9,219 bases of DNA, from NCBI GenBank assembly GCA_021812735.1, contig JAKAMV010000338.1:1-9219 (forward strand), in the 5' to 3' direction. Below are positions 830-7,606 of this stretch, piece after piece; within the stretch, counting starts at the first letter, position 1, and each line of letters begins with the position of its first letter. The stretch comes from Chloroflexota bacterium. Its GTDB lineage: Bacteria > Chloroflexota > Limnocylindria > Limnocylindrales > CSP1-4. The notes under the pieces were generated by a model. That model did not search any database, was not told the origin of the DNA, and saw only the letters and a list, made by a program, of their open reading frames with translations. The translations under genes were made by a program, and so were the position numbers.

Positions 830-1026
830 CAGCGCTGTTCCTTTCTGCGAGCATCGCCTAGGAGGGGCCGCATGAACCCCGCGGACCCGGCGGCGATGCC
901 TGCGAGCCCGGACGCGAGGAGGAGGACGGCGGCGAGCGGCGCGGTGCCGGGTCCGCCGCCGATGGCGATCTCGACGAGGCCGAGGCCCACGCCGAGCAGG
1001 AGGACCCGCAGGACGAGCGTGCTCAT
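829..1026 (-). CDS. Small two-helix membrane protein between cytochrome b and the Ig-like gene
   Basis: This is a 65-residue hydrophobic protein with helices at about residues 4-23 and 27-50, a short linker containing GGGPGTAP, and a charged C-terminus ending DARRKEQR. ATG at 1024-1026 overlaps the TGA of the cytochrome b gene as ATGA, and its own stop joins the next start as TGATG, so it sits tightly coupled inside the operon. AGGGGG lies about 6 bases before the start. The frame is open further upstream, but that part lies inside the cytochrome b gene and reads as arginine/proline-rich shadow sequence. I do not recognise the family. Small two-helix proteins often act as accessory subunits of membrane respiratory complexes, which is the likely role here by inference. 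Confidence 0.7.
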   Translation of the reverse strand: MSTLVLRVLLLGVGLGLVEIAIGGGPGTAPLAAVLLLASGLAGIAAGSAGFMRPLLGDARRKEQR

Positions 1027-2111
1027 CCCATCGCCCCCTGCACGTGGGCCACCGGCACCGTCACGAGCGCGTACAAGACGAGCAGCACGGCCGCGATTGC
1101 GGCGAGGGCGCCGATCGCCATCACGAGCCGACGTCGACGGGGCGAGCGGTACGGGCTGCGGTCGAGGAACGGCAGCGCCGCGAGCGCCGCGAAGACGACT
1201 GCCGGGACCCAGAGCAGGGCGGGCAGGCCGAACCAGTCCTCGAACGGGTAGAAGACCAGGAACATCCAAGGCGGCTTCGTGGTCTCAGTGCCCGGGATGG
1301 GGCGGTCGCCGAGTGGGGCGGGGACGACCGCGGCCAGCACGACGGCGACCGCGAGCAGGACGAGCCCGAACCCGGCCATCCGCACGATGTGGGCGACGAA
1401 CGTCGACCCGGTGCGCTCCGGCGCGGGGCCGCCGTCGACGGCCACGTCGGCCTCGGCCGGCAGGGAGGGGATCCCGTGGCGCTTGACGAGCAGGAAGTGC
1501 GGGATGAGCAACAGCATCCCGATCGCCGGCAGGATCACCACGTGGGCGAGGTAGAGCCGTCCGATGATGGGCAGAGTCGCCGCGAAGTCGGTCGAGAACC
1601 AGGTGCCGAAGGCGCCGATCAGATTGCCGATCTCGACGTTGTGGCCGAGCGCCTCGTAGCCCTCCTGGTCCCACTTGAGGACGGTGCCGGTGAAGATGAG
1701 GCCGAGGGTCACCGCGAGAAGGCCGAGGCCGATGAGCCAGTTCGCCTCGCGCGGGCGCTTGTAGGCCGCGGTCGTGAAGACCCGGCCGAAGTGGAGGAGG
1801 ACGGTCGCCATCACGATGTTCGCGGTCCAGAAGTGGACGCCGCGGACAATGTCCCCAAACGGGACGGTGTTCATGATGTAGACGACGCTCTCGCGCGCGG
1901 TCGCTGCCGTCGGGTGGTAGTACTGCGCGAGCCACACCCCGCTGGCCGCGAGGATCAGGAACCCGAAGAACGAGATCCCTCCGAGGATGTAGCCGATGCC
2001 GTTCGCGTGGGCGGGCACGGGATAGGCGAGGCCGCTGATGCCCAGCCGCTCGTCGATTGCGGCCCAGCTCAGGCGGCGCCGCCGGGGCGCTGCGACTGCC
2101 GCATTGGCCAT
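1023..2111 (-). CDS. Cytochrome b of a bc/b6f-like quinol-oxidising complex
   Basis: This 362-residue membrane protein carries the diheme core of cytochrome b. Likely axial ligands are H93 and H107 on one helix (GVHFWTANIVMATVLLHFGR) and H190 and H205 on the fourth. The 15-position spacing of the second pair is that of cytochrome b6 rather than mitochondrial cytochrome b. Helices fall near 43-63, 92-112, 125-145, 186-208, 240-262, 294-314 and 326-352, so b6 and subunit IV-like parts are fused. The Qo-site PEWY motif appears as PPWM (280-283), without the glutamate. There is no cysteine anywhere, so a b6-type covalent heme c(n) cannot form through Cys. AGGAG lies about 8-10 bases before the ATG. 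No Rieske protein or cytochrome c gene is adjacent in the window. A four-unit operator array lies 66 bases upstream. Confidence 0.9.
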   Translation of the reverse strand: MANAAVAAPRRRRLSWAAIDERLGISGLAYPVPAHANGIGYILGGISFFGFLILAASGVWLAQYYHPTAATARESVVYIMNTVPFGDIVRGVHFWTANIVMATVLLHFGRVFTTAAYKRPREANWLIGLGLLAVTLGLIFTGTVLKWDQEGYEALGHNVEIGNLIGAFGTWFSTDFAATLPIIGRLYLAHVVILPAIGMLLLIPHFLLVKRHGIPSLPAEADVAVDGGPAPERTGSTFVAHIVRMAGFGLVLLAVAVVLAAVVPAPLGDRPIPGTETTKPPWMFLVFYPFEDWFGLPALLWVPAVVFAALAALPFLDRSPYRSPRRRRLVMAIGALAAIAAVLLVLYALVTVPVAHVQGAMG

Positions 2112-2177
2112 GGTTGCCGATCTCCTGTCTGACTACGGTGGGCGCTCAGTGGCCCACGACGAAGTTCAGCCGCCGAG

Positions 2178-2216
2178 GCTGAATCCCTGATGAGCGCGGT
2201 CTGAACGGTCGGTGAG
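2178..2216 (-). promoter_or_regulatory. Four-unit 11-bp tandem repeat array upstream of cytochrome b (putative response-regulator operator)
   Basis: On the + strand, NNTGA(A/G) units start at 2178 (GCTGAA), 2189 (GATGAG), 2200 (TCTGAA) and 2211 (GGTGAG), all exactly 11 bp apart. On the gene's own strand they read CTCAC, TTCAG, CTCAT and TTCAG. The array ends 66 bases before the cytochrome b ATG. The 11-bp period, about one helical turn, is typical of sites bound in tandem by OmpR/PhoB-family regulators. The same unit and spacing recur at 2464, 5293 and 7574, the last upstream of an OmpR-family gene. Binding and the sign of regulation are inferred, and I could not place a confident -10 element. 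Confidence 0.6.
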
Positions 2217-2275
2217 GAAGTGACGGCACCTGGTCGCGGCCCGGGTACGGCTCGCTCAGGCGTGTGGAAACGGAG

Positions 2276-2311
2276 GCGGGCGGGATCCGCACCGAGGTGG
2301 ATCCCGCCCGC
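2276..2311 (-). terminator. Strong GC-rich hairpin, probable terminator on the minus strand
   Basis: A perfect 13-bp inverted repeat (arms 2276-2288 and 2299-2311, arm core CGGGCGGGATCC) surrounds a 10-base loop. Read on the minus strand, it is followed by CTCCGTTTCC, a weak pyrimidine tract; the + side has no T run. It lies about 200 bases after the stop of the DUF1461-type gene and about 155-185 bases after the array at 2464-2496. It could therefore end either a read-through transcript or a short RNA started at that array, and would insulate the cytochrome b promoter. GC-rich bacteria often have terminators with poor U-tracts. Confidence 0.55.
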
Positions 2312-2463
2312 TCGGCGGCCCATCGCAGGAGCCGCGTGGACGGCGGCCCGGGGGGAGGCCAGGCACGTCCGGTCGACAGTCGGTGGCGTGCCCGTGTCCG
2401 ACGACCGGTCCACCGCCTGCCGCCCTCTGAGAGGGAGAGGACGACGAGAGTCTCGGGCGGCGG

Positions 2464-2496
2464 TCTGAGCGCAGCCTGAATTGCGGCTGAGACTTG
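2464..2496 (-). promoter_or_regulatory. Three-unit 11-bp tandem repeat array with no obvious gene directly downstream
   Basis: On the + strand, TCTGAG (2464), CCTGAA (2475) and GCTGAG (2486) lie exactly 11 bp apart. The last is followed by ACTTG, giving GCTGAGACTTG, which matches the end unit at 7596 (GCTGAGACTCG) and 5315 (CGTGAGACTTG) almost base for base. On the minus strand the repeats read CTCAG, TTCAG, CTCAG. The array partly overlaps the right arm of the hairpin at 2484-2520. What it controls is unclear: the next minus-strand gene, cytochrome b, starts 350 bases away and has its own array. The alternative is an RNA starting here. Confidence 0.55.
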
Positions 2497-2520: not shown

Positions 2521-3200
2521 AGGTGGATCTCGAGCCGCGATGCGAGGTAGCGGCTGCCCAGCCACAGGGCGAGCGAGATCGAGACCCCCACGATGAAGAC
2601 GGCGGCGGCCGACTCAGTCCAGAACGACGTCGGGAATAGCTGGGTCAGGCGCTCCACGCGCGGGTCGAACGAGAAGTTGCCCTCCGGGAAGAAGACCTGG
2701 TGGAACGCCAGCCACGCCGCGTCGAAGAACGCAACGAACAGGACCCCTGCACTTGCGCCGACGGCGGCCGTCGCGAGCGCCGCGCGGCTGACCGACCGCC
2801 ACCACCGCGCGTTGCGGCAGCTCTGGATACCCGAACCGATCATGGCCGCGGCCGCGAGCGCCACGACCACCTCGAAGGCGCGCACCACGCCGAAGACGTC
2901 GCGCATGTGCCCGCGTTCGGCGGCGTCGAGGACGGGCGTGCCGCCGATGGCGACCACGAAGTCCGGCGGGCCAATGGTCGCGTCGCTGATGAGGGCCTTG
3001 GTGATCCGCGCCACCTCCGCTTCCGGTAGGCCGGCGATGCCCGCCACCCCCGCCCGCTGCTGGGCCGGGAGGACCCACCACGGGTTGAACAGCAGGGCGA
3101 GGCTCGCGCCCGCGATCAGGACCGGCGTGGCGGCCGCCGCGAGCCAGGCAGCCCGCCGTGCTTCCCGCGGCGGGCGGGCGGCGGAATGCTGCTTGCTCAT
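2514..3200 (-). CDS. DUF1461-type (TIGR01906-like) integral membrane protein
   Basis: The product is a 228-residue membrane protein with helices at about 19-38, 107-126, 138-160 and 198-218. A large loop (about 40-100) contains RGHMRDVFGVVRAF, like the H-x-x-D-V block of this family. The signature region at 163-194 (LAFHQVFFPEGNFSFDP followed by LTQLFPTSFW) closely resembles the conserved FH-x-x-FF-P-x-G-N...L-x-x-LFP-x-x-FW block of DUF1461 proteins, whose function is unknown. I chose ATG at 3198-3200 (MSKQHSAAR) over an upstream extension to 3266 because a GAGG-like site lies about 6-7 bases before it and the extension reads as arginine-rich filler. It is divergent from the cysteine-rich gene at 3284, with 83 bases between starts. 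A role in membrane or envelope stress is possible but not shown. Confidence 0.8.
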   Translation of the reverse strand: MSKQHSAARPPREARRAAWLAAAATPVLIAGASLALLFNPWWVLPAQQRAGVAGIAGLPEAEVARITKALISDATIGPPDFVVAIGGTPVLDAAERGHMRDVFGVVRAFEVVVALAAAAMIGSGIQSCRNARWWRSVSRAALATAAVGASAGVLFVAFFDAAWLAFHQVFFPEGNFSFDPRVERLTQLFPTSFWTESAAAVFIVGVSISLALWLGSRYLASRLEIHLG

Positions 3201-3222
3201 GGCTGCCTCATGCCTGGCTAAG
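3195..3222 (+). promoter_or_regulatory. Candidate three-unit 11-bp repeat array upstream of the cysteine-rich gene
   Basis: On the + strand, GCTCAT (3195), CCTCAT (3206) and GCTAAG (3217) lie exactly 11 bp apart. They read CTCA along the direction of the + gene, which starts 61 bases further on, as the other arrays do for their genes. Units one and two share CTCATG and the third is degenerate. The first unit contains the start codon (CAT) of the divergent DUF1461-type gene, so part of the match is forced by coding. If bound, the site would sit on that gene's start. This is weaker than the arrays at 2178, 2464, 5293 and 7574. Confidence 0.35.
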
Positions 3223-3283
3223 CGTTCGAGGCGACGTTCGGATCCGGGGATAAGGCCCCGACCCACGCCTACAGGAGGTTCTC

Positions 3284-3556
3284 ATGCAGCTGATTGAGCT
3301 CACCGTTGTCGATTCGGAGGGCCAGCCCGCTGCGGATTGCGCCACCTGCGGCTCGCCCGTGCCCCCTGGGTCGGGCGTGACGGCGGTGTTCCACGGCCGC
3401 ACGCTGCGCTTCCGGTGCGAGGGCTGCTTCTCCCGGTTCGTGCTCGACGCCGACCACGCGCCAGACGGGGTGGCCGCGTCATGCTGCAGCGGCGACGCCG
3501 ACCACGAGTCCGCAGCGGCGCCAGGCTCGACGCCGTTCACCGAGTGGTGCATCTGA
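3284..3556 (+). CDS. Small cysteine-rich putative metal-binding protein
   Basis: This is the only convincing + strand gene. A strong AGGAGG (3272-3277) lies 6 bases before the ATG. The 90-residue soluble product has seven cysteines: C19-x2-C22 (CATCG), C45-x2-C48 (CEGCFSRF), the pair C67-C68, and C89 in the C-terminal TEWCI. The two CxxC pairs, separated by about 22 residues of beta-like sequence, suggest a zinc-ribbon or TRASH/YHS-like metal site. The second knuckle with its F-S-R-F-V-L-D-A-D tail resembles YHS-type proteins. There is no signal peptide, so it is probably cytoplasmic. Next to HMA and YHS genes, a role as metal chaperone, buffer or sensor is plausible. The exact family and the metal are not identified. 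It converges on the Lgt-like gene, with 23 bases between stops. Confidence 0.8.
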   Translation: MQLIELTVVDSEGQPAADCATCGSPVPPGSGVTAVFHGRTLRFRCEGCFSRFVLDADHAPDGVAASCCSGDADHESAAAPGSTPFTEWCI

Positions 3557-3579: not shown

Positions 3580-4767
3580 TCAGGCGGCACCTGGCCCCTG
3601 CGCAGCGCGGCGCCACGAGAACCGCCGTGTCTCGGCGCGAACCCTGAGCAGACCCTGGCGTGCCGCGACGTACAGGGCGATCGAGGCGACGAACACCAGG
3701 CCAGTGCCTTGGGCGACCCGACCCAGCACGAGCGCAGCCGTCAGGAGCGACAGCGCCAACCCGACAGCCGACTCGATCAGCTGCGCGGGGACGCGTCGGG
3801 CGCCAACCCGCCGGTCGGAAGACCAGATGCCCCGCCCCGCGGTGATTCGGCCTGCGCAGCACCCCGTGAGGAAGCAGCCGACTCGCCCCACGGCGACCGC
3901 GAGGAAGATCGTCGGCGCGACCGCGTCGAGGTAGCCGCCGATCGGCACCCCGAGGACGAGGGCGGAGGTCAACGCAGCGATGGGGGCCGACACCAGGAAG
4001 CCGTCGACCGACCAGCCCTCGCGCAGGGTCGCCCGGCTCGGGCCCTTCAGGCCCATGTACCAGCCCTTGGCGCCCGCCACGCCGATGAGCATCGCGAGCA
4101 CCGATGCGAGGATGGCCGGGCCGACCGGAACGCCGTGGTGCGTCAGGAAGAGCGGCTGCGCCGCGATGGATCCCGCCAGCGCGATGGTCGCCGCGGCGAG
4201 GAAGCTGCCGGTCAGGACGCCTGGCGCCGCGGCGAGCGGCGCGGTCAAGGCCCAGCGGGTCCTCGCGGGTCCCGCCACGCCGACCATTTCCCAGCGGCGC
4301 CAGGACCACCCGACAAGCGGCAGCGCAGCCGGGTTGGCCGCGCGGGCGCGCTCGGGACCGACGACCTCGGCCGTGACGTCCCACTCGCCACCGGAGACGC
4401 CGTACACCCAGGTCGTGGTCGACATGGGAGTGCTCCCGGGAACGACCCCTGCGATCGTCTCGGTTCTGGAGAATGCGTCCGCGGGGGCCGGGACGCCGAC
4501 AACGCCGCGGCGGCGCCCTGCCAGTCGGATCGTCGCCGTGTACGCAGGCCCGCCGGCCGGACCAGGGTCGAACCGGTGCGATACCACGAGCGCCTGCGGC
4601 TCGCCCTCAATGGCCGCCTCGGCCGCGGTACCGTGCTGCGTGGCCGCGGATGACGGCGTCGGCGACGGACCGGGGCCCGCACCACTGGGCTGCGTCGGCA
4701 CGACCCCCGCGGAGGACCGGGCAGGTGCCGAGCGCGCCCGCCGTTGGGGTCGGCGCTTGGAGCTCAC
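3580..4767 (-). CDS. Lgt-like membrane protein with an extra N-terminal domain (not a canonical Lgt)
   Basis: The product has up to 395 residues. The C-terminal half has several helices (about 180-205, 212-235, 256-275, 282-300, 330-350, 354-370) and the signature GRVGCFLTGCC (294-304), which aligns with the G-R-x-G-N-F-x-N-G-E region of prolipoprotein diacylglyceryl transferase (Lgt). PAQLIES (327-333) matches the Lgt P-x-Q-L-Y-E block. The conserved Arg is R295, but the essential His of Lgt (H103 in E. coli) has no equivalent that I can see, and the N-x-E positions are cysteines. Residues about 55-165 form a separate beta-rich domain ending in a Trp-rich segment (GWSWRRWE). I used GTG at 4765-4767; the Pro/Ala/Ser-rich first 50 residues make a later start possible. 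It is last in the HMA-YHS operon, 30 bases after the YHS stop. It may transfer a lipid group or have been recruited to another role. Confidence 0.7.
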   Translation of the reverse strand: MSSKRRPQRRARSAPARSSAGVVPTQPSGAGPGPSPTPSSAATQHGTAAEAAIEGEPQALVVSHRFDPGPAGGPAYTATIRLAGRRRGVVGVPAPADAFSRTETIAGVVPGSTPMSTTTWVYGVSGGEWDVTAEVVGPERARAANPAALPLVGWSWRRWEMVGVAGPARTRWALTAPLAAAPGVLTGSFLAAATIALAGSIAAQPLFLTHHGVPVGPAILASVLAMLIGVAGAKGWYMGLKGPSRATLREGWSVDGFLVSAPIAALTSALVLGVPIGGYLDAVAPTIFLAVAVGRVGCFLTGCCAGRITAGRGIWSSDRRVGARRVPAQLIESAVGLALSLLTAALVLGRVAQGTGLVFVASIALYVAARQGLLRVRAETRRFSWRRAAQGPGAA

Positions 4768-4797: not shown

Positions 4798-5019
4798 CTA
4801 GCCATGGTGGGTCGCATCGGTCTCGTCGTGGTCGTGGGTCAGCGGCGCGCCATCGGCCCACCGCGTCGGGTCCTCGCGGAAGGTGGACGCGCAGGCGGGG
4901 TCGCAGAACCAGTAGGTCGTACCCTCGAACACGGCCGACGGTGATCCGCCGGGCGCGACCTTCATCCCGCAGACGGGATCGGTCGCGCGGTGGTCATGGT
5001 GACGTCCGTGAGCGTGCAT
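4798..5019 (-). CDS. YHS-domain metal-binding protein with histidine-rich ends
   Basis: The 73-residue product centres on a YHS domain: DPVCGMKV (14-21) followed by YWFCDPACASTF (36-47), giving C17, C39 and C43 as likely metal ligands. Both tails are histidine-rich: MHAHGRHHDH at the N-terminus and THDHDETDATHHG at the C-terminus. YHS domains occur as tails on copper and other heavy-metal ATPases and as stand-alone metal-binding proteins. The His-rich ends strengthen a soft-metal or copper/zinc binding role, probably in the cytoplasm since no signal peptide is present. GGAG lies about 8 bases before the ATG. It lies 18 bases after the HMA gene. Its TAG stop is in the same frame as the Lgt-like gene that follows. 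Confidence 0.85.
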   Translation of the reverse strand: MHAHGRHHDHRATDPVCGMKVAPGGSPSAVFEGTTYWFCDPACASTFREDPTRWADGAPLTHDHDETDATHHG

Positions 5020-5037: not shown

Positions 5038-5271
5038 TCAGGATTCGACGGGTCGACCGGCGTGGTAGCCGGCACGGTGGATTACTCGCATCAGCGTCCA
5101 GGTGTCGACGGCCCCGGGCTCGGACCGCACGTATGCCGTCTCGGTCGCGGGGTTCACGTAGACGCTGCGGACGCCGGGCACTGCCGCAAGCGCGCGCTCG
5201 AGCGTGGTCGCGCCTGCGCCGCCACACCCGAGGCCGTACACCGGGATCCTGAGTTGAGGAGAACTGTCCAT
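5038..5271 (-). CDS. HMA-like metal-associated protein with a single cysteine
   Basis: The 77-residue product fits the heavy-metal-associated (HMA) ferredoxin-like fold. It has a beta strand (LRIPVYGL), a loop GCGGAGA at the usual GMxCxxC position, helix TTLERALAAVPGV, strand SVYVNPATETAYV, and the final helix and strand TWTLMRVIHRAGYHA. Only C16 remains, because the second cysteine of CxxC is alanine (A19). This one-Cys version is seen in some HMA proteins, but binding strength and metal cannot be read from sequence. It is first in the HMA-YHS-Lgt-like operon. No ribosome-binding site is visible before the ATG at 5269-5271, and a short hairpin (5272-5288) lies there. An operator array ends 21 bases upstream. 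This layout would suit a very short leader or a leaderless message. Confidence 0.8.
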   Translation of the reverse strand: MDSSPQLRIPVYGLGCGGAGATTLERALAAVPGVRSVYVNPATETAYVRSEPGAVDTWTLMRVIHRAGYHAGRPVES

Positions 5272-5288
5272 GGCCCGATGCTCGGGCC
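5272..5288 (-). repeat. Perfect inverted repeat immediately before the HMA start codon
   Basis: GGCCCGA (5272-5278) and TCGGGCC (5282-5288) are perfect 7-bp arms around TGC. It directly abuts the ATG of the HMA gene and lies between that start and the operator array at 5293-5325. It could be a dyad bound by a second regulator or an RNA hairpin limiting translation, or have no function. No Shine-Dalgarno sequence is visible within it. Confidence 0.4.
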
Positions 5289-5292
5289 GCAG

Positions 5293-5325
5293 GCTGAGAG
5301 CCAGATGAGCCTCTCGTGAGACTTG
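5293..5325 (-). promoter_or_regulatory. Three-unit 11-bp tandem repeat array upstream of the HMA-YHS-Lgt-like operon
   Basis: On the + strand, GCTGAG (5293), GATGAG (5304) and CGTGAG (5315) lie exactly 11 bp apart. The last continues as ACTTG, matching the end units at 2486 and 7596. On the gene strand the units read CTCAC, CTCAT, CTCAG. The array lies in the 90-base gap between the sensor kinase stop and the HMA start, so the metal operon probably has its own promoter rather than relying on read-through from the kinase. Likely bound by the OmpR-family regulator encoded at 6765-7448 (inference). Confidence 0.6.
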
Positions 5326-5361: not shown

Positions 5362-6768
5362 TCAGTCCGCTCTGGCTGGCAGCACGATCTCCACCCGCGT
5401 GCCTCCCTCAGCGCGAGGCGAGAGCGTGATCGTCGCGCCGTGGGCGTCGGCGATCCAGCGGGCGATTGCAAGGCCCAGGCCCGTGCCCGAGGGGCGAACC
5501 TGGCGCGCCCTGCGTCCGCGGAACAGCCGCTCGAACAGGTGGTCTGCGTCCTCCTCGTCGATCCCGATGCCCGTGTCGTCCACCGTCACCACCGCCGTCT
5601 CATGGAGCGTCGCGAGGCGCGCGGTGACGCTGCCGCCGGTTGGGGTGTACCGCGCCGCGTTGTCCAGGACGATCCCGAACAATTCGCGCAGGCGGTCTGC
5701 ATCGCCCTCGACGACAACGGGCTCCACGGCGGCCACCGACATCCGCACGTGCGTCGCTGCCTGTCTCTGCCGGCGGACGCAGTCCACCAGGAGCGCATCG
5801 AGCTCGACCGGCAGGAAGGTGAGCCGGGCCCCGGACTCGGCCCTCGCGAGCGAGAGGAGGTCGGCGATGAGTCGGCCCATCCGTTCGGCCTCATCCCGGG
5901 CGTCGTCGAGGATGGACGCCCGCTCTGCGGCGTCGAGGCCGGGACGTGTCGCGAGGTCGAGGTTGGCCCGGATCACGGTCAGCGGGGTGCGGAGCTGGTG
6001 CGAGGCGTCGCCCAGGAACCGCTGCAGCGCGTGGTGGCTGGACTCGAGAGCGGCCAGCATCTCGTTGAACGCGGCGGCGAGCTCGCCCACCTCGTCGGGC
6101 ACCTCCGGGCGCTCAACGCGCGCCCCGAAGTCGCCCGAGAGCGCGATGGCGCGTGCCGTCTCGGTCACGTCGGCCACGGGCGTGAGCGCTCGGCGCGCGA
6201 GGAGCAGTCCGGCGACGAGCGCCAGCAGCGTCACCGCCAAGCCTCCCAGGAGGAGCGCGACCCGCACGGTGTCCAGCAGCGATCGCAGCGGTCGGGTGCT
6301 GTCCGCCCAGACGACGTACCCGAGGGTCGCCCCGCTGGGCGCGAGGACAGCCTGCACGGTGACGCGGAGGACGTCTCCCTGCACCGGGTGCTCGTGGATG
6401 TAGTGGTCGTGGCGGTCCGCGGCTGCAAGGTCGTCGGGCGTGACCGGGAGGGCCGGCTCCGCGGCGGGAGCGGAGTCGGCGATCTCGCGCCCGGCGGGGT
6501 CGAGCACGAGGATCCTCCCGCCGGTCGAGGCCAGCTGGGACACGAGCCTGGGCGTCGGCGACAGATTCCCGGCCGCGTCCACGTCCTGGCTCACGGCCCC
6601 GGCCGCGTGCTCGGCGTTGGCGACGAGCGAGTCGTCGAAAGACATCTGGAGCTCGCGGCTCAGGACGACGTACATGCCGCCGCCGAACGCGGCCAGGGCC
6701 GCGGCGAGAAGGGCCGCGTAGAGGAGCGCGAGCCGCAGGCGGATCGTGAGCGGCGGGAGGCGGATCAC
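5362..6768 (-). CDS. Two-component sensor histidine kinase with a His-rich extracytoplasmic loop
   Basis: The product has 468 residues from a GTG at 6766-6768 that overlaps the regulator's TGA as GTGA. TM1 is at about 11-36, an extracytoplasmic domain at about 37-165, TM2 at 168-190 and HAMP at about 190-243. The HisKA box SHQLRTPL has phospho-acceptor H257. The ATPase domain shows N box DNAARYTP (369-376), G1 DDTGIGID (397-404), F box LFERLF (411-416) and G2 GTGLGLAI (428-435). All motifs look intact, so it should autophosphorylate and signal to the adjacent regulator. The sensor domain contains a histidine cluster, [10 protein letters not shown] (119-128; H120, H122, H125, H127), a plausible metal-binding site. 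That would suit a copper or other metal signal, given the HMA and YHS genes just downstream. The signal itself is not shown. The frame is open far upstream but that part is the shadow of the regulator gene. Confidence 0.93.
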
Positions 6769-7448
6769 CCGTCCTTGAGCACGTAGCCGGCGCCGCGCAC
6801 CGTGTGGATCAGCCTCGGCTCGCCACCGCCCTCGAGCTTCCCCCGCAGGTAGCGGACGTACACCTCGAGGACGTTCGACTCGCCGTCGAAGTCGTAGGAC
6901 CACACGTGGTCCATGATCACGTCCCGGGTCAGCACCTTGCGCGGGTGGCGCATGAACAGCAGCAGCAGGTTGTACTCGGTCGTCGTGAGCTCGATCCGGC
7001 GCGCCCCGCGGCGCGCCTCGCGCGCGTCGACGTCGAACTCCAGGTCGGCGAACCGGAGGACCTCGCCCGCCGGGGCGGTGCGGCGGCGCAGGAGCGCGTG
7101 GACGCGCGCCAGCAGCTCCTCGAAGTTGAACGGCTTGACCAGGTAGTCGTCGGCGCCGGTCTCGAGGCCCTCCACCCGGTCGCGCACCTCGTCGCGCGCG
7201 GTGAGCATCAGGATGGCGACCTCGTCGCCGGCCGCGCGCAGCCGGCGCGTGACCTCGAGCCCGTCGATGCCGGGCATCATCACGTCGAGGACGACGAGGT
7301 CGGGCAGGTGCTCGCGCGCCTTCTCGAGGCCCTCCTCGCCCGTGGCGGCCTCGACGACGCGGTACCCCTCGTAGGCGAGGCCGCGGCGCACCACGGTCCT
7401 GATCTTGGGGTCGTCGTCGACGACCAGGATGCGCGTGGGGTCGGCCAT
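6765..7448 (-). CDS. OmpR/PhoB-family response regulator
   Basis: The product has 227 residues. The receiver domain (about 5-120) has acidic residues D11-D13, phospho-acceptor D55 in [10 protein letters not shown]83 in LTARD and K105 in LVKPF. The winged-helix DNA-binding domain (about 130-226) has the family pattern [22 protein letters not shown], then [11 protein letters not shown], and ends [13 protein letters not shown]. It pairs with the overlapping sensor kinase. The start at 7446-7448 ([10 protein letters not shown]) is supported by AGGAGG at 7461-7466; the longer open frame to 7787 lacks sense before this point. Regulators of this family bind direct repeats at 11-bp spacing as head-to-tail dimers. 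Such repeats lie 125 bases upstream of this gene and before other operons here, so it probably controls itself and its neighbours (inference). Overall pattern is MprA/PrrA-like. Confidence 0.95.
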
Positions 7449-7520: not shown

Positions 7521-7573
7521 GTCGCGCTCGGCGCCGTCGCCCGTGGTGGCACGGTCGCAGAGTGCGCTCCGAA

Positions 7574-7606
7574 TCTGAGAGCAGTCTGAGCGCCCGCTGA
7601 GACTCG
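7574..7606 (-). promoter_or_regulatory. Three-unit 11-bp tandem repeat array upstream of the response-regulator gene
   Basis: On the + strand, TCTGAG (7574), TCTGAG (7585) and GCTGAG (7596) lie exactly 11 bp apart, the cleanest copy in the window. On the gene strand this reads CTCAG three times, preceded by GAGT as in the other arrays. It lies 125 bases before the regulator start, in the gap between the small ORF after nuoN and the two-component genes. The family of the adjacent regulator and the repeat period both point to autoregulation, which is inference. Confidence 0.65.

Follow-up and report, generated by a model that had tools for sequence, protein, structure and literature searches.

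Tandem CTCAG arrays and a CopRS-like two-component system in Chloroflexota: a putative promoter code for a genome-wide copper regulon

The PHO box overlaps the -35 region of the promoter, and PhoB-type activators are placed likewise. The SARP activators of Streptomyces, a different protein family without a receiver domain that acts on antibiotic genes, also use direct repeats at 11-bp spacing that overlap the -35 region and stand at a fixed distance from the -10 element. In the accessible parts of the sources, PhoB is described as binding two 11-nucleotide direct repeats head to tail, and the PHO box is defined as two units, the number of units being variable in Streptomyces according to a review (PMC4415409, PMC10294691). 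The CopRS system of Corynebacterium glutamicum binds an 11-bp direct repeat, TGAAGATTTgaTGAAGATTT, located before its own operon; the model given in the accessible part of that report has the system control a copper ATPase and a multicopper oxidase besides its own genes (PMC3140484).

The window considered here is a stretch of 9,219 nucleotides from a Chloroflexota bacterium. At 99.8% identity it matches a section of contig JAJZRG010000060.1, which belongs to a Chloroflexi metagenome bin (locus L001, genome G001), and genome-wide counts for its organism were taken from the genome of this near-identical locus. The window holds a sensor-regulator pair and several arrays of short tandem repeats, most likely promoter switch sites by which the pair turns on its own genes together with many copper-handling genes. 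As judged from sequence, these arrays very probably define a genome-wide copper regulon of an OmpR-family regulator resembling CopRS/CusRS, in which the regulator would bind the arrays, activate transcription in the manner of PhoB and respond to copper. The control system is a new example of a familiar kind, found in a poorly known group of Chloroflexota.

The two-component system and the arrays around it

The window pair consists of a receiver plus C-terminal winged-helix regulator adjoining a HAMP/HisKA/HATPase kinase, the composition expected of the OmpR/PhoB family (Table 1). The best NCBIfam match of the regulator among 101 families was cztR_silR_copR (TIGR01387), at 242.1 bits and below the curated cut-off of 279.2, and that of the kinase among 78 families was cztS_silS_copS (TIGR01386), at 201.5 bits and below the cut-off of 292.55. 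The best NCBIfam match of the HMA protein was a CopZ family, also below cut-off; the YHS and LGT-like genes lie on the same strand and are perhaps each in one operon with the HMA gene. Further genes of the window are of NADH-dehydrogenase/antiporter type and Lit-like. Proteins resembling the TRASH-like one by eye are encoded behind arrays in G082 and, as second gene, in G003. Metal sensing through the periplasmic loop of the kinase was considered and set aside, since a His-rich stretch of the loop is unconserved in three of four relatives (L120, L003, L002) and copper sensing can therefore not be read from the sensor. Locus L001 carries two insertions that are absent from the window (13706-15139 and 16333-17708), with genes resembling Mutator/IS256-type transposases by eye; one is inserted within the TRASH-like gene and the other at the edge of the cytochrome b array.

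Motif scoring of the window recovered every array named in the original prediction. Three arrays reach at least 13/15 at 11-bp spacing, compared with a shuffle mean of 0.029 and 0/1000 shuffles giving three, so that the exact spacing is indeed beyond chance; no array of this quality was found in the window at spacings of 7-10 or 12-15 bp. A looser count of seven at 12/15 includes one wrong-strand array and two registers of a single array, and is not relied on. The supposed common orientation holds for the four minus-strand arrays and fails for the array at 3196-3222, which is on the plus strand and faces the plus-strand gene at 3284. The shared end unit AAGTCTCA or GAGTCTCA exists in the window, whereas among 132 aligned arrays only the T preceding the repeats is clearly conserved there (66%).

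Each array is followed by a putative -10 element, whose A and T are both present in four of the five promoters (regulator, HMA, distal and TRASH-like); the fifth, that of cytochrome b, keeps the T only. Transcription of the regulator gene is predicted to start at 7552, leaving a leader of 104 nt. The predicted start of the HMA promoter, 5271, is the first base of the start codon, and this message is predicted to be leaderless. That of the distal array lies 331 nt ahead of the cytochrome b gene. The possibility that the interval from the distal array to cytochrome b encodes a protein was rejected, as no frame was conserved by eye in all three loci compared, which suggests an RNA. The fold z-score of positions 2262-2442 is -2.56, and stretches similar to 2268-2442 occur in G126, G082 and contig C20 of G001; the stretch was found in 3/177 genomes. 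Its terminal 13-bp hairpin has two compensated pairs in the C20 version, and the stretch shows C-rich loops by eye. A covariance model of the stretch matched only its source loci or the near-identical L001 (3/177 genomes, under stricter filters), which indicates a lineage-specific element, and a search of the window against Rfam returned no family at the gathering threshold. The stretch is a possible candidate for a regulator-driven small RNA.

Table 1. Genes, putative promoter elements and candidate RNA of the window
Feature	Position	Strand	Details
Putative activator array before response-regulator gene	7575..7601	-	3 exact CTCAG units, 11 bp; 15/15; 17/17 with -10 positions
Putative -10 element CACTCT, regulator promoter	7559..7564	-	A and T at fixed positions
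OmpR/PhoB-family response regulator gene	6765..7448	-	227 aa; Response_reg and Trans_reg_C
Histidine kinase gene	5362..6768	-	468 aa; HAMP, HisKA, HATPase_c
Putative activator array before HMA metallochaperone gene	5294..5320	-	13/15; 15/17 with -10 positions
Putative -10 element GAGCAT, HMA promoter	5278..5283	-	
HMA-domain metallochaperone gene	5038..5271	-	77 aa; PF00403
YHS-domain metal-binding protein gene	4798..5019	-	PF04945
LGT-like membrane protein gene	3580..4767	-	PF01790
Small cysteine-rich TRASH-like protein gene	3284..3556	+	90 aa; PF24273, below cut-off
Putative -10 element GACGTT, TRASH-like promoter	3233..3238	+	predicted transcription start 3245
Weak putative activator array facing TRASH-like gene	3196..3222	+	CTCAT, CTCAT, CTAAG; 14/17 with -10 positions
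Distal putative activator array	2465..2491	-	14/15; 16/17 with -10 positions
Putative -10 element GAGACT, distal array	2449..2454	-	predicted transcription start 2442
Candidate array-driven non-coding RNA or leader	2268..2442	-	ends at 13-bp hairpin; fold z-score -2.56 for 2262-2442; in 3/177 genomes
Four-unit putative activator array before cytochrome b gene	2179..2216	-	CTCAC, TTCAG, CTCAT, TTCAG; 13/17 in best register
Putative -10 element TGAACT, cytochrome b promoter	2163..2168	-	T kept, A replaced by G; predicted start 2156
Cytochrome b gene	1023..2111	-	362 aa; PF13631 and PF00033

Genes behind arrays across the class

Placement and targets were studied in 49 loci with matches or the regulator from 20 genomes (19 regulator-bearing genomes plus G135), which gave 151 arrays with at most two mismatches; 12 further loci with isolated matches from G001, G002 and G003 bring the total to 163. 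As loci were chosen for their matches, array density in them is meaningless and placement informative. Genes were called by a rough script of our own. The 12 isolated-match loci are excluded from the target list, the -10 logo and the offset test, to which they would add one array with the A and T pair.

After removal of L001:12132-12299, a likely gene-caller error, from 119 listed genes, the 118 first genes behind arrays comprise 16 response regulators, 15 cupredoxins, 11 P-type ATPases, 10 multicopper oxidases, 10 HMA proteins, 6 YHS proteins and 5 cytochromes b, one protein possibly counting in several families. Among 120 controls drawn at random from 574 other genes of the same loci were 10 kinases, 9 cupredoxins, 8 LGT proteins, 4 response regulators, 4 YHS proteins and 3 P-type ATPases, so that the controls are themselves rich in copper proteins; multicopper oxidase, HMA and cytochrome b were absent among the 25 of 96 control families listed, down to two members. 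Sites of the regulator's type are present before copper ATPase, multicopper oxidase and the system's own operon, the arrangement by which a CopRS-like system is recognized. The PHO-box half-site differs from CTCAG, the half-site found here, and no phosphate-uptake family is named among the 25 of 67 families listed behind arrays. Metal, respiratory and signalling genes, which the original prediction had linked, all stand behind arrays, and the genes behind arrays are rich in metal functions, as anticipated; copper handling is a stronger theme than respiration.

The target set fits copper detoxification together with envelope repair; cyclopropane synthase, ZIP, DoxX, M23 and M48 peptidases and methyltransferases are also encoded behind arrays. 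These non-copper targets, and a sensor loop that lacks a conserved metal-ligand pattern, are what would be expected if the same system served a general envelope-stress or redox regulon with a signal other than copper. Such a signal is unlikely, given that copper ATPase, multicopper oxidase, cupredoxin, HMA and YHS proteins are the commonest non-regulator families behind arrays. The likelihoods assigned here to rival explanations are not exclusive, for a general envelope-stress regulon would share everything but its signal with the copper regulon favored here, whose signal may be copper or a consequence of copper stress.

A protein of about 71 residues with a WPGLDR.KLTR.CGDP motif recurs behind arrays in G109, G128 and G072 (L157 7748, L162 10078 and L159 18277). 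Together with the 90-aa TRASH-like protein, it is among the small proteins of unknown function that the promoter code points to copper handling.

Association of arrays with the regulator

The regulator is cleanly delimited, its copies being at least 81% identical and the next relatives 64%; protein searches scored the 16 to 19 top-ranked first-look candidates of each genome and could have missed a copy. Triple matches with at most two mismatches number 33 in G001, 28 of them on six contigs (17 for the reversed-pattern control), 21 in G003 (3) and 7 in G002 (1). With at most one mismatch, at least two matches were found in 18/19 regulator-bearing genomes and in 12/132 others of a set of 151, the reversed-pattern controls summing to 11 and 21. 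The full promoter pattern, YTCAB N6 YTCAB N6 YTCAB N11 ANNNT, was then searched in 177 genomes of the class. It occurs in 22/23 regulator-bearing genomes (160 matches, median 6) vs 20/154 others (43 matches), and its reverse gave a single match in the 177 genomes; the Mann-Whitney p of 4e-22 exaggerates the strength of the association, since both traits are shared among related genomes. The regulator-bearing genomes G163, G166, G171 and G174, which were naive to the pattern, have 6, 6, 12 and 8 matches. Matches are often clustered (6/6 on one contig in G072, 19/20 on two in G082), and are scattered in G171, with 12 on nine contigs. G002 carries the regulator, yet has no match to the promoter pattern genome-wide. 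A single operator family goes with the two-component system, as had been proposed, and the presence of its arrays follows that of the regulator. Instead of being local, as first described, the regulon is genome-wide, for the 22 regulator-bearing genomes with matches have 1 to 23 full promoter matches each, which makes a copper regulon predictable genome by genome.

Enough upstream sequence is available for 27 of the 28 regulator copies, and an array with its -10 element scoring at least 13/17 lies within 300 bp of 24/27 of them, compared with 2/27 at six other spacings. In the other three (G052, G005 and G072), the regulator gene begins about 17 bp after a gene that has its own array (14, 16 and 16 of 17). 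The best match of this preceding gene in G072 is a copper-resistance multicopper oxidase family, below cut-off; that of G005 resembles it by eye, and that of G052 is similar in size and place. Five of the 23 genomes (G001, G003, G082, G095 and G174) have two regulator copies on separate contigs, which may be duplicated islands or reflect mixed bins. The second copy in the G001 bin belongs to a diverged version of the region (L111, contig C20), 73-80% identical, in which the regulator, HMA and cytochrome b genes again have arrays upstream and the distal array recurs as well; C20 may be a second island or come from another strain in the bin.

A different OmpR-family regulator of the same genomes as the binder of the arrays, with the window's regulator as just one of its targets, is improbable. 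Many of these genomes have dozens of first-look candidates, and in G003 another regulator gene directly follows the kinase gene (L120:2641-3333). Well-placed arrays also occur without the window's regulator: ten regulator-negative genomes have at least two promoter-pattern matches, and in four of them (G161, G084, G100 and G135; L200 to L203) 9/10 arrays are intergenic and 7/8 lie on the strand of the next gene. Such genomes may be bins lacking the regulator's contig, or may use another regulator. Against a different binder, the gene of the window's regulator is the first or second behind an array in 27/27 testable copies, and array counts track the presence of this regulator.

Promoter architecture and relation to known systems

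In DNA called 83% coding, 151/163 arrays are intergenic, in agreement with the expected scarcity of the motif in coding sequence (12/163), and 135/147 arrays with a known next gene are on the strand of that gene. Without the 12 isolated-match loci these figures become 144/151 and 133/141; the 12 arrays of those loci, five of which are in coding sequence, two of six on the strand of the next gene and one followed by A and T, look like chance matches. In eight loci of four previously unused regulator-bearing genomes, 17/17 arrays are intergenic, 16/16 of those with a known next gene are on its strand and 9/14 have A and T, most of these loci having been picked by the promoter pattern, so that only the placement is independent. 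Tandem direct-repeat half-sites about one helical turn apart before genes are as expected for the OmpR/PhoB family.

When the 132 arrays are aligned with the first C as position 0, two positions stand out beyond the three repeats and the preceding T, namely A at +38 (73%) and T at +42 (81%). This pair, 12 and 16 bp past the last repeat, is present in 87/122 arrays (84/122 when register ties of long arrays are broken differently) and in 0 to 7 at 19 other offsets between -12 and +7. In 14 of the 35 arrays without it, the pair is displaced downstream by exactly 11 bp, as would be the case if the proximal unit were a fourth, weaker one. The two positions presumably correspond to A(-11) and T(-7) of a -10 element, which would place the transcription start at +49. 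A start codon falls exactly on this predicted start in 11/122 arrays and within 2 bp of it in 20 (19 in a rerun), which points to leaderless messages. Distances of the other arrays are in phase with a period of about 11 bp (Rayleigh p 6e-5, best of five periods), a pattern that longer arrays could also cause. Among 26 arrays without a fitting gene within 280 bp, at least nine precede small genes that the gene caller missed or mis-started, as recovered by eye (HMA, TRASH-like, YHS and the ~71-aa family). The arrays are accordingly read here as parts of promoters, made of repeats and a putative -10 element at a fixed distance, and look like activator boxes, a feature that had escaped the original prediction.

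Arrays that cover the -35 region near the predicted transcription start could also be repressor operators, at which the regulator would stay bound and keep RNA polymerase out until released by a signal. This is slightly less probable still than a different binder, as the half-sites stop at a fixed 11 bp before the -10 element and the region holds no other strongly conserved -35 candidate, which fits an activator replacing the -35 element; on this ground we infer activation. The chance that the arrays are a neutral tandem-repeat family spread by duplication or by a mobile element is negligible, despite several copies within the window and matches on few contigs in many genomes, for arrays are rare in coding sequence, are directed at genes and stand at a constant distance from the -10 element. 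Four arrays are common to the window and L111, and in these 44/48 YTCA positions are identical vs 64/104 spacer positions (p 9e-5), a comparison biased by the fact that 3/4 L111 arrays were found by motif.

In the favored copper regulon, the phosphorylated regulator (6765-7448) would occupy the tandem half-sites in head-to-tail arrangement, along a single face of the DNA, and bring in RNA polymerase, the bound protein taking the place of the -35 element. The promoter would read as three half-sites, mostly YTCAG at 11 bp or about one helical turn, then 11 bp, A(-11)NNNT(-7) and a start 7 bp on. The system would thereby activate itself and a genome-wide copper-handling and envelope set that includes copper ATPase, multicopper oxidase, cupredoxins, HMA and YHS proteins and cytochrome b. 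This amounts to a readable promoter code, with activator box, spacing, -10 element and a predicted, often leaderless start, for a two-component system of uncultured Chloroflexota.

Whether the code extends further was considered among distant relatives. Paenibacillus pinistramenti has a 47%-identical regulator whose gene is preceded by an array of the same kind with the same -10 geometry; a divergent array lies close by, and the gene behind it encodes a large membrane protein without an evident role in copper handling. Among 77 regulator loci beyond the three close relatives, mostly from Streptomyces, an array of at least 13/15 was found only in P. pinistramenti, and the Streptomyces relatives, at about 50% identity, have no CTCAG triple of that quality upstream. 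An old, phylum-crossing grammar of one regulator lineage (YTCAG three times at 11 bp, then 11 bp and ANNNT), with half-site quality setting the threshold of each promoter, is doubtful, as the single array among the 77 distant loci and the membrane-protein gene of P. pinistramenti both count against it. If true, the copper response of a genome would be readable and rankable from its sequence alone, and the code would also drive the candidate structured RNA before cytochrome b in the close relatives of the window. As separate observations, Streptomyces sp. Ru73 (L208 1501, +) has a CTCAG, CTCAG, CTCAT array with matching -10 directly before a gene resembling an HtrA/PepD-type protease by eye, a single match that may be due to chance, and upstream of the Streptomyces regulator relatives L012, L014, L020 and L046, oppositely oriented GTGAG...GTAAG repeats at a distance of 11 bp were seen by eye.

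A literature search, with most subscription journals outside its coverage, found no description of the CTCAG-array motif. The motif reported for Streptomyces CutR in the accessible part of its source, TAWATAAA, is different from the arrays (PMC12802291), and the accessible part of a source on the mycobacterial MprA box yielded no sequence for comparison (PMC5855569). Both window proteins resemble the heavy-metal subfamilies TIGR01387 and TIGR01386 by best match, and differ from their members in scoring under the curated cut-offs. Unlike PhoB, whose signal is phosphate and whose box is defined by two units in the sources as far as accessible, the present system would respond to copper and has three conserved units. 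The closest functional match found is CopRS of C. glutamicum, which, as described in the accessible part of the report, differs in its half-site and in having two half-sites where three are present here, and is likewise a two-component system with 11-bp direct repeats and the same types of targets (PMC3140484).
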